Shown here: piece by piece, positions 1 through 13,938 of the stretch | Numbering within the stretch: position 1 is the first letter of the stretch | How the letters are laid out: each line of letters begins with the position of its first letter | DNA from: a virus | DNA length: 22,078 nucleotides | IMG/VR virus record: IMGVR_UViG_3300047325_000014 | Span: 1-22,078 of that record | Reading direction: 5' to 3' (one strand) | The notes under the pieces: generated by a model | Told to the model about the DNA's origin: nothing | Database searches by the model: none | Seen by the model: only the letters and a program-made list of their open reading frames with translations | Made by a program: the position numbers and the translations under genes

Positions 1-969
1 CAGCTTATCAGCGGCCAGGCGTCGGGCATGTGCGACACCCTCGACAGCGATCAGAGCGGCACCGCGCCGACAACCTACACCTGGTCGATCATGTACGATG
101 ACATGGTCGCGAACATTGTCACGATCACCGGCAGCGTCACTGGGGGCGTCCAGGGGGCGCGCACCACAACGCAGGTGGCATATGCGAGCTACACGCCGCC
201 CGAGGACGGTTATGGGCCAACGCCTTATGTCGTCGGTGGCACCACGCATGCCTTCGCCGCCTCGAATTTCACCAATTCGGTAGAAGTGCAGGGCACATAC
301 ACCGTCACCAGCTCCGACAACTATCCGGGCGTGGTGTGCTATTTCCAGGGCCGCAAGGTCTTTGCCGCGTCGCTGCAGGATCCGCAGACCGTCTGGATGT
401 CGAAGCCGAACCTGTTCCAGAACATGGATTATTCGGTCCCGGCCGAAGATGACGACGCGATCGACATCACCATCAACGCCCAAGACTTGAGCACTATCGC
501 GCACGCGACGCCGATGTCGGCGGGGTTGGTGCTCCTGACCGCAGACGGCGCATGGCAGGTCACCGGCGGGGGGCTATATGAGCCGGTGACGCCGGCGTCG
601 GTAAATGCTCAGCCCCAGGCATTTTCCGGCGCCTCCGATCTGCAGCCGCTGCGCATCGGGTACGAGCTGTTCTATGTCCAGGCGCGCGGCTACGCGGTGC
701 GGAAGTTGTCATATAATTTCTACATCAACACGTACACCGGAACCGACGTTTCGGTGCTTTCGGCGCATCTTTTCGATGGCCGGCAGATCGTCGAATGGGC
801 TTGGGCCGAGCAGCCGTTCTATAACATCTGGTCGATCCGCGATGACGGGGTGGCGCTGTCGATGTGCTATCTGGCGGAGCAACAAATTCAGGGCTGGGCG
901 CGGCACGATACGCAAGGCTATTGGCGCTCGGTCGCCTCGATCCCGCAGAAAAGGGCAACGGTCGTATGA
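1..969 (+). CDS. Tail nozzle/stabilisation-type protein, N-terminal part (5' partial)
   Basis: The frame is open from the first base of the window, so the true start lies upstream; 322 residues are visible. The motif series YPGVVCYFQGRKVFAA, then QTVWMSKP, then EDDDAIDITINAQ, then VLLTADGAWQV, and finally WSIRDDGVALSMCYL followed by GWARHDTQG, is what I know from phage proteins usually annotated as packaged-DNA stabilisation / tail nozzle (P22 gp10 or T7 gp12 position, often labelled E1-FCCH-domain protein). In those proteins the chain normally continues after the GWARHDTQG block into a C-terminal half. Here it stops after ...SVASIPQKRATVV, and the matching C-terminal half is found in the next reading frame. 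The stop codon TGA (967-969) overlaps the next ATG (966) as ATGA. The family call rests on motif memory, not a search. Confidence 0.75.
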   Translation, partial: QLISGQASGMCDTLDSDQSGTAPTTYTWSIMYDDMVANIVTITGSVTGGVQGARTTTQVAYASYTPPEDGYGPTPYVVGGTTHAFAASNFTNSVEVQGTYTVTSSDNYPGVVCYFQGRKVFAASLQDPQTVWMSKPNLFQNMDYSVPAEDDDAIDITINAQDLSTIAHATPMSAGLVLLTADGAWQVTGGGLYEPVTPASVNAQPQAFSGASDLQPLRIGYELFYVQARGYAVRKLSYNFYINTYTGTDVSVLSAHLFDGRQIVEWAWAEQPFYNIWSIRDDGVALSMCYLAEQQIQGWARHDTQGYWRSVASIPQKRATVV

Positions 970-1655
970 CGCTGGCGACACCCGCGATTGTCCAGCAATC
1001 GTTTGCCCAGGCACTGACCGCACCTGCGACCTTGACGCTGCCCAACCCGGTTACGGTCGGCAATTTGTTGGTGATGCTGGGTGTGGGCGGCGGCGACGGT
1101 GCCGATGATGCTTTTGGCTTTGGGGGAGAGAGCAACCCGTCCGGCTGGTCGAATTTGATTCACAGCTTCACGGATTACGTCGGTTTGGCGGTTTATACAA
1201 AGCTTGCCACCGAATCGACGCCGCCTGTGCTGACCGTTCCGTACGCTGGCACCTCGACCCAAGCCGTTGTGATTTTTGAGATTGAGAACTTTTCTACCAT
1301 TACGCCGTTTAATCCCGAAGTCAGCGTCGATGAGTTTCAGATTTCGGCGGGGCCGGTCGGCGCCGCAACCGATGTCGCATCGCTTTACTTGGCTTTGGCC
1401 GTCGACGTCACTACCGGTCTGACTTATGTCGGCGAGGACGGCACGACATGCGGCCAGACCTTGGCGGGCGTAAATCTTTTTGAGTCGGACAGTTATACCG
1501 GCGTCGTCGTCAGCGGAACCTCGGAAGAGCCGTTCACATTCAACTGGCAGCAATCCGCGGTGGGCGTGTACCACAACACTAGCGGGGGTTTGGCCGGCGT
1601 CCAGCTTTCGCCCGGCACCGTCCCGACACCGACGCCAGGCACGGCCAGTTCGGAA
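966..1655 (+). other. Inserted beta-rich surface module in the nozzle protein
   Basis: This segment encodes roughly residues 1-230 of the second nozzle ORF and separates the two halves of a protein that is normally continuous. Its markers are PAIVQ (6-10), GNLLV (32-36), SGWS, VYTKLATESTPPV and AVVIFEIEN. The same markers, in the same order, recur at the tail fibre C-terminus (13283-13885). The 3' boundary is estimated from where canonical family sequence resumes (EDFVYF). A lectin-like or jelly-roll fold is an inference from the strand/turn pattern only. Confidence 0.6.
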
Positions 1656-2852
1656 ACCAACAGCGAGGATTTTGTCTATTTCGTTGCCGAGCGGGTGACG
1701 ATCCGCGACGGCGTTCCCTACCATTATTATACCGTCGAGATGATGGCCTCGCGCTATTTCGGCGGCAATTTCGCGCAGGCCAAGCCGTCCGAGGTCGAGA
1801 ACGCTTATTGCGTCGACGCCGGCCGCCAAATCCTGCCCGGCAACCCGGCGGCCGATTTGTGGATTACCCTTGAAAACCAAGGCGCCATCGGCTCGGTCGA
1901 CGTCGTGACCGGCGGGTCCGGCTATCCTTCGCCTCTGCTTGGGCAAATCGTGGACCTCAACGGGCCGGGCGCTGGTGCGACCGTGTCGATCACCGTCACC
2001 GCCGGCGTCATCACCGCCATCGTTGTCGACAGCGCGGGCTCTGGCTACGTGCAGCCGGAGATCCAGCTTGCCGCCAGCAGCGGCGCGGGCGCGGTTCTGA
2101 CGCCGCTGGTGAGCAACACCTGCTCGATTTACGCCGACGCCGCGGTGTGGGCATCCGGCAACGTCGGCGACGTCATCCGCGCCAGCGGCGGCAAAGCCCA
2201 GATCGTCACCGTATCCAGCCCGCAGCTCGTGCAGTGCAACGTCTTGCAGTCGTTCACCGCCTTTATGCCCAACACCCAGCAGGTCGCACCTGCAGCCGCC
2301 GGTTATTGGTCGGAGGGCGCGCCGGCTGCGATGGTCGGATATCTCGACCACCTTGAGGGGCAATCCGTCGTGGGCCTGGCCGACGGCGATGTGTTCGGGC
2401 CCCTGACCGTCACCGACGGCGCAATCAGCCTGCCGATGCCGGCTTCGCTGATCTCGGTTGGCCTTGGCTACACCGCCCAGCTTCAGACGCTGCGGCTGGA
2501 CCTGCCGGGTGGTGGCACGATTCAGACGAAGCGCAAGAAGATTTCGGCGGTCAACGTGCGGGTGCAGGACACTCAGGGGCTTTACGTCGGGTCGCGCTGG
2601 GACATGCTCAAGCCGATCATCCCCGCCGGCTATGTCGCCAGCAATAATCCGGTGCCGTTCTCGGAGGGTGGCGGCGTGCAGATGACCGCGTATCTCGGCA
2701 TCTACGGCGAGACGACGGTCCGGTTTGAGGACCAGCGCATCAACATGGATCCGTCATGGAACCCTGACGGCCAGGTGTGCATCCAGCAATCCAACCCGCT
2801 GCCCGCCAGCGTGCTTGCTGTGGTGCCGGAAGTCACGATGGGCGACACATGA
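966..2852 (+). CDS. Tail nozzle-type protein, C-terminal part, with inserted beta-rich module
   Basis: This encodes 628 residues from ATG 966, which overlaps the upstream stop as ATGA; AAAAGGG (949-955) could serve as Shine-Dalgarno. The frame is open further upstream, but that stretch lies inside the preceding gene. Residues 1 to about 230 form a beta-rich, Gly/Thr-rich module (PAIVQ, GNLLVMLGV, SGWS, AVVIFEIEN), ending in a PTPTPG linker. From EDFVYFVAERV (about residue 235) the sequence resumes the canonical C-terminal half of nozzle/stabilisation proteins. It has two GSGY repeats (about 305-385; SVDVVTGGSGYPSP and IVVDSAGSGYVQPEI), then HLEGQSVVGLADG, VGLGYTAQLQTL and KRKKISAVNVRVQDTQGLYVG. 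It probably assembles with the upstream product in the tail. A sequencing indel in the A/G run, which would fuse the two genes into one, cannot be excluded. Confidence 0.75.
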   Translation: MTLATPAIVQQSFAQALTAPATLTLPNPVTVGNLLVMLGVGGGDGADDAFGFGGESNPSGWSNLIHSFTDYVGLAVYTKLATESTPPVLTVPYAGTSTQAVVIFEIENFSTITPFNPEVSVDEFQISAGPVGAATDVASLYLALAVDVTTGLTYVGEDGTTCGQTLAGVNLFESDSYTGVVVSGTSEEPFTFNWQQSAVGVYHNTSGGLAGVQLSPGTVPTPTPGTASSETNSEDFVYFVAERVTIRDGVPYHYYTVEMMASRYFGGNFAQAKPSEVENAYCVDAGRQILPGNPAADLWITLENQGAIGSVDVVTGGSGYPSPLLGQIVDLNGPGAGATVSITVTAGVITAIVVDSAGSGYVQPEIQLAASSGAGAVLTPLVSNTCSIYADAAVWASGNVGDVIRASGGKAQIVTVSSPQLVQCNVLQSFTAFMPNTQQVAPAAAGYWSEGAPAAMVGYLDHLEGQSVVGLADGDVFGPLTVTDGAISLPMPASLISVGLGYTAQLQTLRLDLPGGGTIQTKRKKISAVNVRVQDTQGLYVGSRWDMLKPIIPAGYVASNNPVPFSEGGGVQMTAYLGIYGETTVRFEDQRINMDPSWNPDGQVCIQQSNPLPASVLAVVPEVTMGDT

Positions 2853-3844: not shown

Positions 3845-6033
3845 TGCCGACAGTCCCTAACTACGCCTTTGCCGACACCCAGCCGGATGCGAAACTTGCG
3901 TCGCTAAATCCGGACGCCGGTACGGCCGCCGATCAAGCCGTCGCCGGCCTTGGGGATACCGTACAAAAAGGCGCGGACCAGCTCACCGACACCGCCCTGC
4001 AGCTTCAGCAGACCAAGGACCAGGCCGACGCTTACAATGCCGTCAACCAGATGGACGCGGCAAAGCGCAACATCCTGTTCGGGCCCCAGGGCTTTTATTC
4101 GCTGCAGGGCAAGGATGCGGTCGATGCCTATCAGCCCACGCTCGATAAGCTGAACGCGCTGCAAAAGCAGTATGCAGGCACCCTGAGCAACCCGTTTGCC
4201 CAGCAGGTCTATAACCAGACCTCGTCCTATATGCTGAACCGCGAAATGGACTCCATGGCGCAGCACTCGGCCCAGGAGACGATCACGTATCGAAATGGGT
4301 CGATCAACGGCATGATTGATTCCGCCGTGCAGAACGGCGCGCTCAACTACAACAACCCGACGATGACCGATGCGGCGATCCACACGTCCATCGACGGCGC
4401 CCGGCAACTGGCGCAGAGCGAGGGGCTTTCACCCGATGCGACACAGGATTTGGTGACGAAATCGACCTCGCAGGCAGCGGCGGCGATCCTGGATGCCGCG
4501 ATGGCAAAGGACCCGGTCGCGGCCTCGAAGCTTTATGACCAATACAATTCCGCCGGCTATCTTGACGCGGCCACATCCGTAGAGGTCGGCGCGCGCATCC
4601 GGCGGGCCACCATGCCGGGCGTGATCGCCAACATCAGCGATGGCGTCCTTGGCATCGGCCACACCTTCATCAGCAGCGATCAGGCAAACCGCCAATGGCA
4701 GGTGGAGAGTGGCGGCCATCAATTCGGCGCAGACGGCCAGCCCCTGACGTCGCCTAAGGGGGCCGTCGGCGTTGCGCAGCTTTTGCCGGACACGGCGAAG
4801 ATGGTGGCGCAGCAACACGGCATTCCGTTCGATCCTGTGAAACTGGCCAACGATCCGGACTACAATAAATCGCTTGGCACGTTCTACATGAACGACTTGA
4901 TGGCGAAATTTAACGGCAACTACCCCGTTGCCTTGGCGGCCTATAATGCGGGACCGAACAATCCTGGGGTGATGCATTACGCCGCCACCGGCGATATGTC
5001 CCAGCTTCCGCCCGAGACGCTGAAATACGTCGAAGACATCGCCGGCCCGAGCCTGTCCAGCCCGCAACCGTCTGCGGTTGGAATGAACATGGACGATCTG
5101 GGCGCCAAGCTGCCGGCGCTTATGCAGCAGGCATCCGATGCCGCGACGGCGATGTACCCGGATCAGCCCGACGCCGGCGACCAGGCGGCGCAGCGCGTGC
5201 TGGCGGATTATTCCAAGCGAAAGCAGGCCTATGACGATGCGCAGAGCGGTTCTTTCAACATCGTGCAAAGCGCCATCATGCAGAACAAATTCACCGATCC
5301 AGGCCAAGTCCAGGCGATGGGCGGCGATGTGGCGACGGCTTATGCAGACCTCGACCCGGAGCATCAGCGCAGCGTCCTGGCCCTGATGAAGCACAATATT
5401 CCGGGCCAGGATACCAAATGGACGCCGCAGGGGCAGCAGACCATCGACCAGCTTCGCGGGCTTTACTACACCAACCCGCAGGCGTTCGCTAAAGTGAACC
5501 TGCTTTCTCCGCAGATGCTCAACCTCATCCCGCAGGACCAGATTTCGGAATTGTCCAATCTTCAGGCGCAAACCGCCTCCGCCGGCGCGCGGGGCATCTC
5601 GCCAAGCGATATGGACGGCGCTCTTGGCTATGTTGCGCCGATGCTGGTGAGTGCTGGCGTCGGCGTGAAGGCTGGAAAGATCGACAAGGACGATGCCGGC
5701 TATCAGCAATTCGCCGGCGTGTTCGGCCAGGACGTGGAGGCGTTCTACGCGAAAAACAACCGGATGCCAGACGTCTCGGACTTGCGCGCAATCACCCAGC
5801 GCCTACTCGTCCAAGGGACCGTCGCCGGCAGCGGCGGGATGTTCTTTGGTCCCAAGGCGACCCGGCTTTACCAGCAGGAGGGCGCTGGCGGCGATATCTC
5901 GAAATTCCAAGCCGACATTCCGGGGCCGGCGTTGCAGGCGATCAACACCGCCTACGCCAAGCAGAACGGCGGGCGGTTGCCTGACGTGGCGACGGCGACG
6001 CAAATCTACCTCTCGACGCTCGGGCCGCAATAA
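3844..6033 (+). CDS. Internal virion protein with lytic transglycosylase (SLT) domain
   Basis: This encodes 729 residues starting at ATG 3844, one base overlapped with the preceding stop. Residues 1 to about 270 are helical and Gln/Asp-rich. A lytic transglycosylase domain follows: WQVESGGHQF with the probable catalytic Glu288, then SPKGAVGVAQLLPDTA (about 303-318) and LAAYNAGPN (Tyr367, Asn368 region). These are the hallmark ESGG, GVAQLLP and AYNAGP motifs of soluble-lytic-transglycosylase-type enzymes, which cleave the glycan strand of peptidoglycan. About 350 further helical residues follow, ending in LPDVATATQIYLSTLG. It is likely ejected with the DNA to open the cell wall locally. In T7 the transglycosylase sits at the N-terminus of gp16, whereas here it is in the gene before the giant protein. 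Confidence 0.85.
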   Translation: MPTVPNYAFADTQPDAKLASLNPDAGTAADQAVAGLGDTVQKGADQLTDTALQLQQTKDQADAYNAVNQMDAAKRNILFGPQGFYSLQGKDAVDAYQPTLDKLNALQKQYAGTLSNPFAQQVYNQTSSYMLNREMDSMAQHSAQETITYRNGSINGMIDSAVQNGALNYNNPTMTDAAIHTSIDGARQLAQSEGLSPDATQDLVTKSTSQAAAAILDAAMAKDPVAASKLYDQYNSAGYLDAATSVEVGARIRRATMPGVIANISDGVLGIGHTFISSDQANRQWQVESGGHQFGADGQPLTSPKGAVGVAQLLPDTAKMVAQQHGIPFDPVKLANDPDYNKSLGTFYMNDLMAKFNGNYPVALAAYNAGPNNPGVMHYAATGDMSQLPPETLKYVEDIAGPSLSSPQPSAVGMNMDDLGAKLPALMQQASDAATAMYPDQPDAGDQAAQRVLADYSKRKQAYDDAQSGSFNIVQSAIMQNKFTDPGQVQAMGGDVATAYADLDPEHQRSVLALMKHNIPGQDTKWTPQGQQTIDQLRGLYYTNPQAFAKVNLLSPQMLNLIPQDQISELSNLQAQTASAGARGISPSDMDGALGYVAPMLVSAGVGVKAGKIDKDDAGYQQFAGVFGQDVEAFYAKNNRMPDVSDLRAITQRLLVQGTVAGSGGMFFGPKATRLYQQEGAGGDISKFQADIPGPALQAINTAYAKQNGGRLPDVATATQIYLSTLGPQ

Positions 6034-9000
6034 TGGCCGACCCGCTCGCGGCCGCTGCGCCCGCCGCGCCGGCGCCGCCGGATTGGGACAGTGTCGTCGG
6101 CAATTTCATGTCCGCCCGGCAGGGCCAAGCCAACGGCAATCTGACGGCGGCGCAAGGTGTTGATCCCGACAAGGTCGCTGCCGCACGGGTGTTGGCGCCG
6201 GTGCTGAACATTCCCGCCGCGGCCATGGAGGATGACCCGAAATTCTGGCAGGATCAGTTCACCCAGCGCACCAACCGCGCGACGGTCGGCACCGACGCCA
6301 ACCTCGCGTCATGGCTGGCAGCGACGCCCGACAACGCGAAGCTGGCCAGCGACGACATCCAGAATCTCGGCGTCGTCGGGCGTTTCGCGCGCGGCTTCAA
6401 CGAAGCGACGCTGCAAAGCCAAGCCAATCAGATTGAGGCGTCGGAGGGTGCGCACATCGCGTCGCCGATGCAGATGGATTTCCTGCAGACGCTGAAGGAG
6501 CAGCTTGGCCAGTACCAGGATGCCGACGCCGCGGCGGCCGCGCTGGCGCCGGCATATACCGGCCCGCGCGCGTCTCGGCAGTCGATGCTCGGCCCCCCGC
6601 CCGCGACGCCGGGCCAGAACCCCAGCCCGACCATCGGCGACTTCGCCCAAGGCGCTGGCGGGTTTGCCTCGGGCGTCGTAAACACTGCGCCGGAAGTCGT
6701 GGTCGGCGCCGGCACCGGTGCTGCGCTGGGTTCGCTGGCGGGCGGCGTCGGCGCAATTCCGGGCGCCATCGGCGGCGCCGGGCTCGGCCTCGTCACCGGG
6801 TTTGCCGGCCAGACGGCGGTCGATACCTATGGCCAAACCTACGACACTCTTGCCAACGTCACGGACAAGCAGGGCAAGCCGGTTTCGGAGATCACGCGCC
6901 AGTCGGCGGCACTGGTCGCCGCCGGCTTGTCCGGCGCGCTGGCAACCGTCGGTGGCGGCGAGTTGTCGCCGTTCATCCGCGACATCGCCACCGAAGCCGC
7001 GACGCGCCCGGCGCTTTCTGCCGCGTTGGGACAGTTCGCCAAGAGCACGATCAAATCCGGCCTGACCGGGGCGTTTGTGAATGGCGGGATGGGCCTTGTG
7101 CAAACGCTGGCGCCGCAGGTGGCCGAAGCCGTCACGTCGCCGGACTTCCAGACCGTGTTCAACGATCCGGCACAGCGCGCCGCGCTGGTGACGCAAACCG
7201 TCGATCAGATGGAACAGGGTGCTGCTCTGTTCGGATCGCTGCACGTGCCGATGGCGGGCGTTTCGCTGCTAACCGATGCGGCGCGGGCCGACGCCGCGAC
7301 CCGCGCGCTGCAGTCCTGGCAAGGTATGCAAAGTGCGGCCGCCGGCTCGAAGCTGCGCAACCGGGCGCCTGACGCCTTTTCGGCGCTGATGGACACGTAC
7401 AACGGCGGCGGATCGATCTTCGTGCCGGGCGAACGGCTGCAGGAGCTCTATCAGGGCATCCAGTCGCACCCCGGCGCGCCCAACGATCCGTTCGCCTTCG
7501 TGCCGGACATGGAAGCGCAGATGTCGCGCGCCAGCCTGACGGGCGGCGATGTGGAAATCCCGATCTCCGATTTCACCGCGCACCTTGCCGGCACGCCGAT
7601 CGAGCAGCAGCTTCGCCCCGACATTCGGTTCAACGAAGACGGCATGACCATGCGCGAGGCGCTGGATTTCGACGCGCAGACAGCCGGGCATCAATTCGAG
7701 CCGGTCGATTTGTCGCAGACGCCGCACATGAAGGACGTGGAGGACATCAAACAGGACGTGCTCGACCAGGCGCGCAACGTCGGGATGACGGCGGATCACG
7801 CCGAGCAAGTGGCGACCCTGGTGTCCGAGCGCTACGGCGCCCGCGGCGCGCGGCTCGGACAAAGCCCTCTCGAGTTGTACAAGTCGGAAGGCATCCAGAT
7901 GACGCGCGATCCCGGCGTCGTCGCCGGGCCGGCCCAATACACCGGAATTGACGAGGCGATCGACGCTCTGCGCCGTGGCGACATCGGGCCGACGGACAAG
8001 CAGCTTTACGGCGACTCTCTGGTCGATTTTCTGACCAAACGGGGCGGCATCAAAGACGATGGCGGCGAACTGGCCGCACTCGGCGTCAAGGGCAAGCTGA
8101 TCAATCCGAAGGGCATGAGCCTGGATGAAGCGGTTGCCGCGGCGTTTCAGCCGGGCGCATTCGACAAGGCCGGGCAGGGCTATTTTCCGGACCACACCGA
8201 GGACAGCCCGCCCGACCGGAACGATCTGCTCGACGCAATCCAAGGGGGTCCGCGATACCTCACCCCTTCCACGGACACGCTGAAGAAGGCGCAGTTTCGC
8301 GACACGGTCCGGCAACTTGATCAGTTTTTGAACGAGCGCGGGATAGACATCAAAACCGCCAGCAATTTAGACATCAAAACCGCCCTTGATCAGACGCTAA
8401 ACCAGCCCGACGGCGCTGCCGGCGCGCGCGGGTCTATCTCAATGGGCGAGGGCCGGCGGATCATTACGTTGTTTCGCGATGCCGACCGCTCCACGATCCT
8501 GCACGAGCTTGGGCATCAATGGCTCGACGAGGCGCTACGCGATGCTGAGCGCGAGGATGCGCCCCAGGAGATGCGCGACGATGCCGCCACGCTGCGCAAA
8601 TGGCTGGGGCTTAAGGACGGCGAAAAGGCCAGCGTCGAAGCCCACGAGAAATTCGCTCAGGGGTTCGAGCAATACCTGATGGAGGGCAAAGCGCCCTCGT
8701 CGGCGCTGCGGCTGGCGTTCCAAAAATTCGCGCTGTGGCTGACCCGGATTTACCGAACCATGGCCGGTCTGGGCGCGCCCATCAACGACCGGGTGCGCGG
8801 CGTGATGGACCGCCTGCTGGCGACGGACGATGCAATCGAGGATGCGCGGAGCGGGCTGGCGATCAAAAACCCGCTTTTCCGGACGCCCGAGGAAGCGGGC
8901 ATGACGGTGGGCGAATTCGCCGCTTACACCGGCATGATGCGCAAAGCCGAATCCGCTCAGTACGAGCGCGTGCTGCGCCGCGCGTTGCGCGTCGAGGAAA

Positions 9001-12000
9001 TGAAGCGCAAGGCCGAATGGAAGCAGGCGGAGGACGAGGCGCGGCCGGGCATCGAAAAGCAGGTAAAGTCGCGCCCGGTCCTGCAGGCGTGGAAGCTTCT
9101 CGCGTCGGGCAAGGATATCCTCGACCCGTCCAAGGACGTGATGGGCGGAAAGCTGTCGCTGGCTGCGGTGAAAGAGATTCTGGGACCGGCCTACGGCCGT
9201 TTTCCGCGGGGTCTGACCGCCGAAGATGGGATGCACCCCGACACGCTGGCGCCGGCGCTGAGCTACGCCAGCGGCGAGGATATGCTGCGCGATCTGGTCA
9301 ACGAGAATGTCGGCCGCGAAAACGCTGCCATGCAGCTCGGCAAAAAGCTGGGGTTCGACGCCTATGTGTCGCGGCTTGTCGACCAGGCGCTTGATCAGCA
9401 CCTCGAAGAACGGTTCGGTGATCCGCTGCAGGACGGCACGCTCGAAGAAGCCGCGGCACAGGCAGCGCACAACGAAAGTCAGCGCGACGTGATCGCGGCG
9501 GAGATGCGCCAGCTCGCCAAACAGGTCGGCGCGAAACCGCCTTACTCAATTAGGCAGGTGGAGGCTTGGGCAAAATCGAACCTGGCCGAGACCGCGATGA
9601 ACAAGGCGACAAGGGTCGGCATGTACCGTCGCGCCGAGGCAAGGGCCGGCCGCGACGCCGAACGCGCGCTGCTGCGCAAGAATCCGGTGGAGGCGTTCAA
9701 GGCCAAACAGCGGCAGATGATCGCGCACGCCTTTGCCACCGAGGCGCAGCGGTTGCAAAACACGTGGCAGAAAACCACCACGTACTGGCGCAACGTCGCC
9801 CGCCAACCGACGCGTGCCGGGACCGCACAGCCGTTTCTCGACCAGGTGCACGGCATTTTGGATCGGCTCGGCGTGCCGGTGAAACGCGACGCCGGAGAAC
9901 TGGCGCGGGGCCTCAAAGGCAAGCCGCTGGATGGATTTGTCCGCGATCAGGCCGCAGCCGGGTACGATTTGTATGTGCCGGATTTCCTGCGCGACGGCAC
10001 GTTCAAGGGCTTCTACGGCGAATTGACCGCCGATCAGTTTGAGGGCGTGCGGGACGCTGTGACGTCGCTGCTGACGGCCGGGCGGGCGCAGGAGCAGGTG
10101 ACGCTGGATGGCAAGCGCGTGGCGCTCGCCGATCTGGTCGACGAGGCGGTCGATCGCATGATGGCGCTCCCGGATCGCGCGCAAAGCAACCGGCTGCGAC
10201 CCGACCGCATCCTTGATGTGCGCGATGTGCGAGGCGCCATGCACGCCATGGCGACGTTTGGGCGCCAGGTGGATGCTTCGCTGCTGAAGATTGAGCAGAT
10301 GTTCTCGCAGCTCGACGGCGACACGCGCGGACCGTTTCTGCGGTTGTTTGACCGCCTGAAGGAGGCAGAGCACGCCGAGAAAGATCGGTTGGAAGGCATC
10401 GCCGGGGATTGGCGGGCGATGAAAGCGACGATGCCGCCAGGGTGGGCGAAATCGCTGCGCCAGCGCATGACGATCCCGGAATTGATCAATCCGGACACTG
10501 GCAAGCCTTTCGAGATGGACCGCAACGAGTTGATCGGCATGGCGCTCAACGTCGGCAACACCGGCCCGACATCGAATTTCGAGAAGCTTATCAAGGGGTT
10601 CGGCTGGGACGGCGATATCGTCATGCGCGTCCTGCGCCAGCGCATGACGAAGGCCGATTGGGATTTTGTTCAAGGCGTCTGGGATATTTTCGAGAAGATG
10701 ACGCCGGACATCGAGGAAATGCACCGGCGCGTCACGGGCGTCGGCTTTCCGCGCGTCGAGGCCAACCCGATCGAGACGCCGCACGGCATCTACCGCGGCG
10801 GCTATTTCCCGGTCATCTATGACGCCGGCAGGGCCAAAACAGCCAAGGGTGCCGAGGCTGGCCTGTTCGAGCCGACCTTCTACCGCGCCACCACCAGTAA
10901 GGGTCACACCATCGGCCGCGTCGAGTATAGCGCGCCGCTGAAGCTCGGCCTTGATCAAATTCCCTACAAGATCAGTCAGGTGGTGCATGATCTGACCCAC
11001 CGGGAAGCGATCATGGATGCGTGGAAATTCCTGAACCGGCCGGAAATCACCGGCGCTGTTAAGCAAAAGATGGGTCCGGAATATGCCGGCCTGTTCAATC
11101 CCTGGCTTCGCGATCTCGCGAACAATGCCAACACCGACGACAAAAGCCTGCAGTGGATGGACAACGCCATCCGGCGGGTCCGACTCGGCACCTCGGCCGT
11201 GCAGATTGGGTTCAGGGCCACCACCGTTCTGAAGCATTCGCTCTCGGCGCTGTCGAATTCCATCGGCGAGGTCGGCGGTCCGCAGCTTATCCGCGCCAGC
11301 CGGGACGTGTACGGGCCGAACGGCAAGGCGATGCGCGACATGATCCTGGAAAAATCCGGCGAAATGCGGCACCGGATGGAGAATATCGACCGGGATGCAC
11401 GCGAAAGCCTGAAGGCGTTGATGGGCGAGGCGGGGTGGATTCAGCAAGTGCAGCGCCTGGGATTTTATCCGGTGGCGGCGATGGACATGGGCACTGCGGT
11501 CCCGACATGGCTGGCGGGCTATCGGCGGGCGCTAGAGGGTGGCGCCGGCGATGATGAGGCGGTGAAGGCGGCTGATCGCACCGTGCGGTTCGCCCACGGC
11601 TCGGCAGGGGCCGCTGATTTGTCCGCGATCCAGCGGGGCGCCGAATGGCAGAAAGCCTTGACGATGTTCTATGGCTTCTTCAACCATATGTATAACCGGG
11701 AGCGGGCAACCGTCGTTCTGGGCAAGCGCGCGATCCGATCAGCAAAGGCGGGTGACTATGTCGGTGCACGACGTGATTTCGTTGCTGTGGCTGGGCGCAG
11801 CCTCTATTATTTGCTTGTCCCGGCCATGGTTGAATCGATGGTTTCGGGGACAGCCAGCCCCGAACAAGAGGGTTACTTTGAGTGGGGCGCGAAGGCGATC
11901 GTAGGCCAAGTCGCCGCCGGCATTCCGCTCGTGCGCGACCTCGCGACATCGGCGCTTGAGGGCTACAGCTACGAAGTGACGCCCTTGCAGCAGCCGGTCG

Positions 12001-12239
12001 AAGAGGCCGCCACCAGTGCCGCCGATCTGGCGAAAGTCGTCGGCCTGGATCAGGGTCAGGTTTCGGCCAAATGGCTGCAGCACGCCATCGACACGGTCGG
12101 CTATGCGACCGGATTGCCGGCGGGCCAGGCGGGCACCGCGGCGCAATATCTCTGGGACATCGGCGACGGCGAGGCCGATCCGCAGAACCTCGGCGATTTT
12201 CTCCACGGCCTGATGCACGGGGTGCCGGTGCAGCACTGA
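6033..12239 (+). CDS. Giant internal core/ejection protein (gp16 position, polyvalent-protein type)
   Basis: This encodes 2068 residues; its ATG (6033) overlaps the previous stop as TAATG. The N-terminus is Ala/Pro-rich. Residues about 204-263 are a glycine-zipper hydrophobic stretch (GAGTGAALGSLAGG, GAIGGAGLGLVTGF) that could insert in membranes. Around residues 690-730 lies an acidic region ending DHTEDSPPDRNDLLDAI. At residues 824-828 there is an HELGH zincin-type motif (ITLFRDADRSTILHELGHQW), followed by HEKFAQGFEQYLMEGKAP (about 871-888), where a third metal ligand could lie. Long charged helical regions follow. The C-terminal ~350 residues (RLGTSAVQIGFRATTVLKH, FAHGSAGAADLS, MFYGFFNHMYNRERA) resemble the LPD38-like end domain of phage polyvalent proteins. 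Peptidase activity and ejection with the DNA are inferences from motif and gene position. Confidence 0.7.
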   Translation: MADPLAAAAPAAPAPPDWDSVVGNFMSARQGQANGNLTAAQGVDPDKVAAARVLAPVLNIPAAAMEDDPKFWQDQFTQRTNRATVGTDANLASWLAATPDNAKLASDDIQNLGVVGRFARGFNEATLQSQANQIEASEGAHIASPMQMDFLQTLKEQLGQYQDADAAAAALAPAYTGPRASRQSMLGPPPATPGQNPSPTIGDFAQGAGGFASGVVNTAPEVVVGAGTGAALGSLAGGVGAIPGAIGGAGLGLVTGFAGQTAVDTYGQTYDTLANVTDKQGKPVSEITRQSAALVAAGLSGALATVGGGELSPFIRDIATEAATRPALSAALGQFAKSTIKSGLTGAFVNGGMGLVQTLAPQVAEAVTSPDFQTVFNDPAQRAALVTQTVDQMEQGAALFGSLHVPMAGVSLLTDAARADAATRALQSWQGMQSAAAGSKLRNRAPDAFSALMDTYNGGGSIFVPGERLQELYQGIQSHPGAPNDPFAFVPDMEAQMSRASLTGGDVEIPISDFTAHLAGTPIEQQLRPDIRFNEDGMTMREALDFDAQTAGHQFEPVDLSQTPHMKDVEDIKQDVLDQARNVGMTADHAEQVATLVSERYGARGARLGQSPLELYKSEGIQMTRDPGVVAGPAQYTGIDEAIDALRRGDIGPTDKQLYGDSLVDFLTKRGGIKDDGGELAALGVKGKLINPKGMSLDEAVAAAFQPGAFDKAGQGYFPDHTEDSPPDRNDLLDAIQGGPRYLTPSTDTLKKAQFRDTVRQLDQFLNERGIDIKTASNLDIKTALDQTLNQPDGAAGARGSISMGEGRRIITLFRDADRSTILHELGHQWLDEALRDAEREDAPQEMRDDAATLRKWLGLKDGEKASVEAHEKFAQGFEQYLMEGKAPSSALRLAFQKFALWLTRIYRTMAGLGAPINDRVRGVMDRLLATDDAIEDARSGLAIKNPLFRTPEEAGMTVGEFAAYTGMMRKAESAQYERVLRRALRVEEMKRKAEWKQAEDEARPGIEKQVKSRPVLQAWKLLASGKDILDPSKDVMGGKLSLAAVKEILGPAYGRFPRGLTAEDGMHPDTLAPALSYASGEDMLRDLVNENVGRENAAMQLGKKLGFDAYVSRLVDQALDQHLEERFGDPLQDGTLEEAAAQAAHNESQRDVIAAEMRQLAKQVGAKPPYSIRQVEAWAKSNLAETAMNKATRVGMYRRAEARAGRDAERALLRKNPVEAFKAKQRQMIAHAFATEAQRLQNTWQKTTTYWRNVARQPTRAGTAQPFLDQVHGILDRLGVPVKRDAGELARGLKGKPLDGFVRDQAAAGYDLYVPDFLRDGTFKGFYGELTADQFEGVRDAVTSLLTAGRAQEQVTLDGKRVALADLVDEAVDRMMALPDRAQSNRLRPDRILDVRDVRGAMHAMATFGRQVDASLLKIEQMFSQLDGDTRGPFLRLFDRLKEAEHAEKDRLEGIAGDWRAMKATMPPGWAKSLRQRMTIPELINPDTGKPFEMDRNELIGMALNVGNTGPTSNFEKLIKGFGWDGDIVMRVLRQRMTKADWDFVQGVWDIFEKMTPDIEEMHRRVTGVGFPRVEANPIETPHGIYRGGYFPVIYDAGRAKTAKGAEAGLFEPTFYRATTSKGHTIGRVEYSAPLKLGLDQIPYKISQVVHDLTHREAIMDAWKFLNRPEITGAVKQKMGPEYAGLFNPWLRDLANNANTDDKSLQWMDNAIRRVRLGTSAVQIGFRATTVLKHSLSALSNSIGEVGGPQLIRASRDVYGPNGKAMRDMILEKSGEMRHRMENIDRDARESLKALMGEAGWIQQVQRLGFYPVAAMDMGTAVPTWLAGYRRALEGGAGDDEAVKAADRTVRFAHGSAGAADLSAIQRGAEWQKALTMFYGFFNHMYNRERATVVLGKRAIRSAKAGDYVGARRDFVAVAGRSLYYLLVPAMVESMVSGTASPEQEGYFEWGAKAIVGQVAAGIPLVRDLATSALEGYSYEVTPLQQPVEEAATSAADLAKVVGLDQGQVSAKWLQHAIDTVGYATGLPAGQAGTAAQYLWDIGDGEADPQNLGDFLHGLMHGVPVQH
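8344..8384 (+). repeat. 17-base direct repeat within the giant core gene
   Basis: TAGACATCAAAACCGCC occurs at 8344-8360 and again at 8368-8384, a period of 24 bases (8 codons). It encodes the repeated peptide DIKTA in DIKTASNLDIKTALDQ, just upstream of the HELGH motif. The repeat keeps the frame. It is most simply a small in-frame duplication. Confidence 0.8.
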
Positions 12240-12280: not shown

Positions 12281-13885
12281 ATGACATTGACCAATACGCA
12301 GGTCTCGGTGACGTGGGAAGGCAATGGCCTGACCACGACGTTTTCATACGGTTTCCCGATCCCGTCCTCGGCCTATTGCGCGCTCGAATACATCGACGCC
12401 GAAGGCAACGTGACGCCGATCGCGCCCTCGAATTTTTCGATCTCCGGCGCCGGGAGCGCCACCGGCGGCACGATCACCTATCCGCTGACCGGGTCGCCGA
12501 TTGCCGCCGGCACGTCGCTGACGCTGACGCGCAAGGTGCCCTATCAGCAGTTGTTCAAGGCCAATCCGCTTGGTCCAGTCTACGGCCCAGCGGTCGAAGC
12601 GGCGCTCGACTTCATCGTTATGGAAATTCAGCAGCTCGACGCTGTCACCGGGTTCTTGAATGTCGACGGCACGCTGGTCGACGAAATCAATTTCAGCGGC
12701 ACCGCGGTCAATGCGACGCTCTCGAATGGCACGCTTTCGGTGGTGATTACTGAACTGGTCGGCCCGCAGGGCGAGGAGGGCCCGCAGGGGTCTATCGGCC
12801 CGCAGGGCTCTATCGGTCCGACGGGGCAGCGCGGCTCGGATTGGTATCAGGGCACCGGCGCGCCGGGCTCGTTTTCCGGGCAGTTGCAGAACGATCAGTA
12901 TCTCGACGGCACGACGGGCAATACCTACACGCTGGCCTCGGGCGGGACGTGGACGGAGCGCGGCAATATTCGCGGGCCGCAGGGGCCGGTCGGCAACACC
13001 GGGTCAGTGGGGCCGCAGGGCGCGCCTGGTACCAATGCCATCATCGTGACCGGCGGCACCGTGACCATGAGCGGCACGGCGTTCGAGCTCGAATTTGGGT
13101 CCGGGCTTGAGTTGAGCGAAAGCGGCACCGTCGTGTCGATCGCGGCGACTGGCACATCGTCCGGTGGCATCGACGTGGTTTATGGCACAACATCATTGAC
13201 CGCAGTTTCCGGATTGGTCATTGAGCCCGGCATCACAGCCACCGGTACGTCGGGCGGCCTTGTCACGCTTTCGGCCGCAGTGGGCGGCGGTGGTTATTCT
13301 GCAGGCACTGTTCCAAACGTGGTTCAAGTTGCATACAGCACATCATCTTCTGGATCGGCAACGTTTGCCACCGCTCCAACAGACGGAAATTTGCTTGTAG
13401 CAATGAACTTCAACTCATCTAGTCAAAATGCAAATACCGGCTGGAGCATCCAAAGTTCAAATGGATCTGGGACAGATTACGGGACCACGTTGACCAAAAT
13501 TGCTGGTGCAGGAGAGTCTACCACGCAGACTCCAGTCTCGGGGGCTGGTGCAGGTGCCACAGTTATCTGGGAAATTTCTGGCCAAAATGCTACTAATTAT
13601 CTTGTTGGCGCTCTAAGTCAGTCAGAAGTAAGTGGCGGAACAAACGCGCCTATTTTGCTTCCAAACGGTTTCAACTGTTTGGGATTGTCGGCAGTCGGCG
13701 TTGTGCCAGGCAGTACAATTACCAATGCGGTAAATTCTGGTACTCAAGACGTATTATCAAACTCAGGATCAAGATATTTGGTTGCTGGGCACACCGATTT
13801 AAGTAAAACGCCCATGGTAGGCATACTGTGCGCTTTTGCTGGCGGATCGCAAAGCAAAAGCTGCACAGCATTGATTTCATCATGA
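12281..13885 (+). CDS. Tail fibre protein with collagen-like repeats and AT-rich exchangeable tip
   Basis: This encodes 534 residues. ATG 12281 is chosen because MTLTNTQVSVTWEGNG starts a domain resembling the virion-attachment N-terminus of T7-like tail fibres (VPYQQLFKANPLGPVYGPAVE, then ALDFIVMEIQQLD, about residues 90-125). No clear Shine-Dalgarno precedes it. Collagen-like Gly-X-Y blocks lie at residues 161-185 and 232-252. Between them is a DWYQGTGAPG ... YLDGTTGNTYTLASGGTW segment often seen in fibre shafts. Residues from about 335 onward form a separate beta-rich tip (PNVVQ, GNLLVAM, TGWS, ATVIWEISG). That part has far lower GC and uses codons such as TTA and AGA. Binding of a host surface receptor is the expected role. 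The stop overlaps a tiny downstream ATG as ATGA. Confidence 0.8.
   Translation: MTLTNTQVSVTWEGNGLTTTFSYGFPIPSSAYCALEYIDAEGNVTPIAPSNFSISGAGSATGGTITYPLTGSPIAAGTSLTLTRKVPYQQLFKANPLGPVYGPAVEAALDFIVMEIQQLDAVTGFLNVDGTLVDEINFSGTAVNATLSNGTLSVVITELVGPQGEEGPQGSIGPQGSIGPTGQRGSDWYQGTGAPGSFSGQLQNDQYLDGTTGNTYTLASGGTWTERGNIRGPQGPVGNTGSVGPQGAPGTNAIIVTGGTVTMSGTAFELEFGSGLELSESGTVVSIAATGTSSGGIDVVYGTTSLTAVSGLVIEPGITATGTSGGLVTLSAAVGGGGYSAGTVPNVVQVAYSTSSSGSATFATAPTDGNLLVAMNFNSSSQNANTGWSIQSSNGSGTDYGTTLTKIAGAGESTTQTPVSGAGAGATVIWEISGQNATNYLVGALSQSEVSGGTNAPILLPNGFNCLGLSAVGVVPGSTITNAVNSGTQDVLSNSGSRYLVAGHTDLSKTPMVGILCAFAGGSQSKSCTALISS
13283..13885 (+). other. AT-rich C-terminal tip module of the tail fibre
   Basis: GC content falls sharply here. 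By hand count, row 13381-13440 has 23 G/C of 60 and row 13741-13800 has 24 of 60, against 38 of 60 in row 12721-12780 of the same gene. High GC returns immediately after the stop codon. The encoded ~200 residues share the motif order PxVVQ / GNLLV / GWS / TK(L,I)A..ES / VI(F,W)EI with the module at 966-1655. The pattern indicates acquisition of the receptor-binding tip from a lower-GC source. Confidence 0.7.
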
Positions 13886-13938
13886 GCGGTGGCACCATTG
13901 CCGCCGGCACAGTCCGCGTTTACGGCCTCACGCCCTAA
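13882..13938 (+). pseudogene. Relic of a former tail fibre C-terminus (18 codons)
   Basis: A tiny frame reads MSGGTIAAGTVRVYGLTP and then stops at TAA 13936-13938. It lies in a different frame from the fibre, its ATG overlaps the fibre stop (ATGA), and its GC content is back to the genome norm. The pattern GTIxxGTVRVYG is the kind of ending I know from many phage tail proteins. I therefore read it as the leftover end of the original fibre gene after tip replacement. It could still be translated by coupling as an 18-residue peptide. Confidence 0.5.

Follow-up and report, generated by a model that had tools for sequence, protein, structure and literature searches.

In short-tailed phages, fibres and spikes are usually regarded as the only parts that recognise the host. 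The 936 phages carry related carbohydrate-binding modules (CBMs) in Dit and in the neck and tail (PMC6669499), and evolved Dit proteins improve adsorption to polysaccharide-coated hosts (PMC10688798). In Vibrio phage OWB, TTPA and the nozzle protein TTPB bind a host receptor, Vp0980 (PMC7241545). For the nozzle protein gp12 of phage T7 (tail tubular protein B), residue C554 takes part in the disulphide bond by which the propeller is closed (PMC6702177).

Here we analysed a 22,078-base IMG/VR virus record (hereafter the window), which carries the tail genes of a short-tailed phage in the order nozzle, small protein, lytic transglycosylase, large internal protein, fibre and lysis genes; named-phage relatives have the same order. 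Our overall reading, to which we assign a probability of roughly 0.6, is that the fibre tip and a hairpin of the nozzle carry copies of one shared module, that the nozzle is built of two chains, and that both copies bind the host. Two side observations concern the gene neighbourhood: the large internal virion protein (window positions 6033-12239) has an LPD22 domain of the polyvalent-protein type close to its N-terminal start, and Limnohabitans phage DC33 (PQ492659.1), filed under Inoviridae, has a 39-kb podophage-type gene order including a nozzle, so that the filing is probably a taxonomy slip. The nozzle region of the window contains the following features:

1-969, plus strand: ORF1, C-terminal part (propeller) of the first nozzle chain, truncated by the window start (full length 883 aa in sister contig L002); phrog_376 E 7e-69, profile 270-504; 8ck1 residues 311-538.
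950-955, plus strand: Shine-Dalgarno-like AAAGGG upstream of ORF2, read directly (GAAGGGG in L004).
966-969, plus strand: ATGA, the ORF2 start overlapping the ORF1 stop, at the nozzle gene break (TGATG in L004).
966-1640, plus strand: nozzle copy of the inserted module (ORF2 residues 1 to about 225); controlled profile matches, missing from relatives.
1641-2852, plus strand: rest of ORF2, nozzle C-terminal part; phrog_376 489-711, E 4.8e-32; 8ck1 609-827.
1863-2114, plus strand: second ORF2 insertion, a Gly-Ser-Gly-Tyr-type (GSGY) repeat; phrog_19630 E 1e-8, phrog_438 E 9e-7.

Homology across both ORFs, together with gene order, points to a podophage nozzle protein of the gp12/TTPB type. On phrog_376, the ORF1 match extends to profile position 504 and the ORF2 match begins at 489; on the Carin-1 tail nozzle (8ck1), ORF1 aligns up to residue 538 and the rest of ORF2 to 609-827; the Pfam nozzle family PF25675 was matched below its cut-off only. 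Taken together, ORF1 and ORF2 cover the propeller and C-terminal parts of the T7 gp12/Carin-1 nozzle in an end-to-end alignment, and relatives share the gene neighbourhood of the window. However, the protein is encoded here by two genes instead of one, and it has a hairpin module of about 225 residues and further insertions. The chain is interrupted by a stop and restart at 966-969, which is kept in L002 and L004.

The position of the interruption was compared among nozzles. In the uninterrupted nozzles of all 13 named phages compared, one to three residues separate the strand '..ESVA.IPE' from 'EDVLYVVVRR', and in the 77 readable out-of-clade sequences among the 80 nearest IMG/VR nozzles the hairpin measures 1 to about 18 residues. 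Neither a module nor a break lay between the hairpin strands in any of these 77 or 13 sequences; L200 has a stop 18 residues beyond the hairpin site and L235 ends at a contig edge. In the window, in L002/L003 and in L004/L005, by contrast, the first gene stops exactly in the hairpin and the second opens with the module. The nozzle copy is present in all five clade contigs that cover the nozzle, the L004 lineage included, where the module is 36% identical. The nozzle copy is therefore an insertion in one propeller hairpin that also splits the gene into two that overlap. The equivalent site in T7 gp12, aligned by eye, is the loop following C554 (the gp12 profile alignment reaches only residue 466). 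Two lineages with 48% identity between their ORF2 products both retain the break, which argues against a sequencing error.

The two genes overlap by ATGA in the window and L002 and by TGATG in L004, each time preceded by a Shine-Dalgarno-like stretch. In each of the two lineages ORF2 occupies the -1 frame, and some 120 nt ahead of it are open in both frames, as would suit a programmed -1 frameshift that joins the frames into one nozzle chain and leaves some free ORF2; however, none of the three overlap sequences contains a slippery heptamer, and a Shine-Dalgarno-like site with a start codon stands at the module's first residue, which makes frameshifting improbable. Instead, the cutting of the gene into two overlapping genes suggests that the nozzle most likely consists of two polypeptides per subunit, the second starting with the module. 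The nozzle copy begins at the initiator methionine, like many free members of its family; the start codon may thus have arrived with the insertion.

Several further observations were made on nozzle proteins. The GSGY-type repeat at 1863-2114 is shared with other phages' virion and baseplate proteins but is missing from nozzle relatives. Compared with the Carin-1 nozzle, ORF1 of L002 (7353-10004) has an extra insertion at residues 106-192 and ~260 extra residues between 235 and 653. Pseudomonas phage UFJF_PfDIW6 (L141, 3571-6040) has two annotated 'tail tubular B' genes, with a break near residue 158, elsewhere than here. The nozzle of Vibrio phage PS25B.1 (L132, 2177-4498) was deposited as 'chitin-binding type-3', and other Vibrio nozzles are labelled E1_FCCH; when these 'chitin-binding' and 'FCCH' labels were followed up, our scan matched only E1_FCCH, in another part of the protein.

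We next consider the second copy, in the tail fibre, for which the following features were found:

12281-13885, plus strand: tail fibre gene; N-terminal anchor phrog_13893 E 1.5e-10; 28lx/8ck1 tail fibre.
12762-13044, plus strand: collagen-like stalk segments of the fibre; Pfam Collagen E 9e-6, slightly under cut-off.
13292-13882, plus strand: module, fibre-tip copy; family profile, AlphaFold all-beta, GC 0.47, GC3 0.38.
13291-13932, plus strand: exchanged cassette, differing from sister G001; blastn, flanks 96% identical.
13882-13938, plus strand: probable remnant of a previous fibre tip, MSGGTIAAGTVRVYGLTP*; translation, out of frame after the fibre stop.

The initial annotation had proposed that a single domain family occupies two tail sites, on the grounds of markers shared in one order at nearly equal spacing. 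All of the markers were found in that order in nozzle ORF2 (PAIVQ 6-10, GNLLVML 32-38, SGWS 59-62, YTKLATEST 77-85, VVIFEIEN 101-108) and in the fibre tip. Their spacing is close from P to GNLLV (26 residues in the nozzle, 24 in the fibre) but unequal from GNLLV to GW (27 against 17), a stretch in which the nozzle copy is longer by about 10 residues. Compared directly, the two segments showed a marginal likeness (BLASTP E=0.002, 30% identity over 105 aa; the pairwise score was equalled by 8 of 1000 shuffles), too weak to decide the question.

Searches of named phages by tblastn with either module returned no match, and the family was therefore reached via a motif pattern (GNLLVA...GW) in IMG/VR. 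A first profile was built from 28 viral domains found by this pattern, with the fibre tip included, the nozzle excluded, and terminases that carry only the bare motif set aside before alignment. As selection by pattern favours the motif, motif-kept shuffles and the terminase decoys served as controls. The nozzle module matched the 28-domain profile with E=1.7e-10 and 39 bits over almost its whole length (profile 4-192), while the terminase ORFs reached 11-15 bits. With a family profile free of the fibre, the fibre tip scored 76 bits and the nozzle module 30.5 bits, against at most 17.2 bits for 300 motif-kept nozzle shuffles; 9.4 bits remained when the nozzle motifs were masked, and composition bias amounted to 18 bits in this test. 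The L002 nozzle copy was missed by the fibre-free profile under HMMER default filters.

Profile-profile comparison, which the initial annotation had named as a check, gave the same answer: hhalign aligned the nozzle modules to the fibre-free family with a score of 62.0 (96.5%), compared to at most 31.8 for motif-kept shuffles, 17.7 for full shuffles and 10.2 for eight other pieces of the virus. In this test the diverged L004 nozzle copy was not detected as a family member by itself. With a profile made from nozzle copies only, the first seven non-self ranks were all family members; a rank test of all carriers against non-carriers showed no bulk difference, so that only the top ranks argue for homology here. 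The marginal pairwise scores, the 18 bits of composition bias and the large share of the score lost on masking are what one would expect if two unrelated beta-rich domains merely shared a GNLLV...GW motif by chance or composition. Against this, the true hhalign score is double the highest value among motif-kept shuffles and sixfold that reached by other parts of the virus, terminases sharing the motif fail to match, and the top seven non-self matches of the nozzle-only profile all belong to the family; chance resemblance is very unlikely. At the level of sequence, these comparisons establish that nozzle module and fibre tip are homologous over about residues 4-148. Beyond about residue 148, homology is suggested by strand order in predicted models: the fibre-tip AlphaFold model is all-beta (pLDDT 79, pTM 0.81), and the nozzle-module model, which is weak (pLDDT 58.6), agrees with it in strand order but could not be superposed on it.

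The GNLLVA...GW family is large and widespread, is described by neither Pfam nor NCBIfam, and is without a solved relative. Among 42 members, none had a confident match in Pfam or NCBIfam and two had weak matches in PHROGs; the module itself matched no curated model in these three collections, and no solved relative was found in the PDB by sequence or fold. A BppA-like CBM fold was likewise not recovered (5e7t, E 1.0, TM 0.25, non-significant; no PDB sequence match). The family occurs in IMG/VR, BFVD and bacterial MAGs. In BFVD, 35 predicted viral proteins match the fibre-tip fold at E<=1e-3, several of them annotated as minor tail proteins. Bacterial or MAG contigs account for four family matches; in two of these the module belongs to a long protein and is preceded by a membrane- or signal-like start. 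Members form the C-terminus of fibre-like proteins, begin at residue 1 of long tail or surface proteins, or occur in pairs, and a search for fusions, also proposed beforehand, found LamG, SPRY, right-handed beta-helix and Ig-type domains as partners. Compared to the rest of the family, the nozzle copies are outliers with a long loop before GW and a diverged last third. Double use of the module is also seen elsewhere: L155 (2573-5573) and L156 (3044-5543) both have two adjoining fibre-like genes, each ending in a module copy (the second copy of L156 being weak, E 4e-4), and each of these viruses uses the module twice.

The fibre consists of a T7-type anchor, collagen-like segments and a Gly-rich joint, followed by the module, which makes up the final 197 residues. 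Sister phage G001 is 96% identical up to 13290 and again from 13933, with an unrelated tip in between (blastn), and GC3 falls from 0.79 ahead of the fibre tip to 0.38 within it. The fibre-tip copy is thus a recent and separate arrival as a low-GC cassette. The out-of-frame stretch past the fibre stop, MSGGTIAAGTVRVYGLTP*, which we take to resemble fibre ends, may be left over from the end of a previous tip. Fibre tips also differ between L010 and L011 (contigs of L004 and L005), which are otherwise near-identical; both end in the common last residues SGTISGNFYLYRRSLTLP.

The distribution of the two copies bears on their origin. The nozzle copy is found in all five of the clade contigs that cover the nozzle and the fibre copy in the window only, the fibres of the L002 and L004/L005 contigs ending differently, in line with the proposal of separate acquisitions; the further claim that the pair is not a recent local duplication held up as well. 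In a family tree the fibre tip clusters with those of other viruses (98/88), away from the nozzle copies. A clade forced to unite fibre and nozzle was not rejected (p-AU 0.10), so that the case for separate origins rests mainly on distribution. This tree test leaves formal room for one copy having been derived from the other within this virus lineage; given that relatives carry the nozzle copy only, that GC3 differs (0.70 in the nozzle copy against 0.38 in the fibre copy), and that the fibre tip clusters with foreign fibre tips, such internal copying is hardly credible. The nozzle copy is old and stable, while the fibre copy is recent and swappable.

What the two copies do can be approached through their positions. 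The initial annotation had envisaged a receptor-binding unit at two sites of the virion. For the fibre tip, position makes a good case for this: the module is C-terminal, behind collagen-like and Gly-rich parts, and is exchanged as a cassette between near-identical phages. For the nozzle copy, a binding role is inferred. Surface exposure of the module is likewise presumed, its place in the virion being deduced from homology. Both copies are most likely adhesion modules, with the fibre tip as the main receptor-binding domain and the nozzle copy as an accessory binder. Both would bind the host surface, probably glycans; the fibre tips would make the first, specific contact, and six nozzle-borne copies would ring the DNA exit and provide an accessory contact near the envelope that could help the nozzle to seat before the gate opens.

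The L004 nozzle copy is unrecognisable alone, and nozzle copies may therefore have lost their ancestral function. If so, the nozzle module could be a structural spacer or assembly clamp that braces the propeller or a fibre dock, with binding lost and only the fibre tip acting as an adhesin. The stability of the nozzle copies over time, their divergence (36% between lineages, with the L004 copy undetectable alone) and the location of the module precisely where the chain is broken and might require bracing are consistent with such a role, whereas all near relatives manage without the module and other family members sit at exposed ends of tail or surface proteins; we regard a purely structural role as possible but on balance unlikely. 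A bolder version of the adhesive reading is a two-chain gate, in which the module lies beside the propeller closure and couples envelope binding to channel opening, so that the adhesin is part of the trigger; this is doubtful.

Taking both copies as adhesion modules, the nozzle copy is most likely a podophage counterpart of the evolved Dit proteins. As with the evolved Dit/BppA-type CBMs of 936 lactococcal siphophages, the module is inserted in a core tail protein and is missing from the relatives' version, and related modules are reused at several virion sites beside the receptor-binding protein. The 936 modules, however, belong to siphophages, have a known CBM fold and have been shown to bind, whereas here the carrier is a podophage nozzle, the domain is undescribed and binding is presumed; moreover, unlike in evolved Dit, the insertion coincides with a gene break. 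OWB TTPA/TTPB show that adsorption can involve a nozzle protein, but that comparison includes no inserted module. We found no earlier report of a module in the nozzle hairpin in the open-access literature. If our reading is correct, an adhesion-type domain in the nozzle hairpin would give these phages a second host contact at the DNA gate, apparently an additional hold on the host at a location where none had been noticed before. The finding would also define a widespread tail-domain family that has neither a curated entry nor a solved structure, and it offers a natural site at which the nozzle tolerates a 225-residue insertion.
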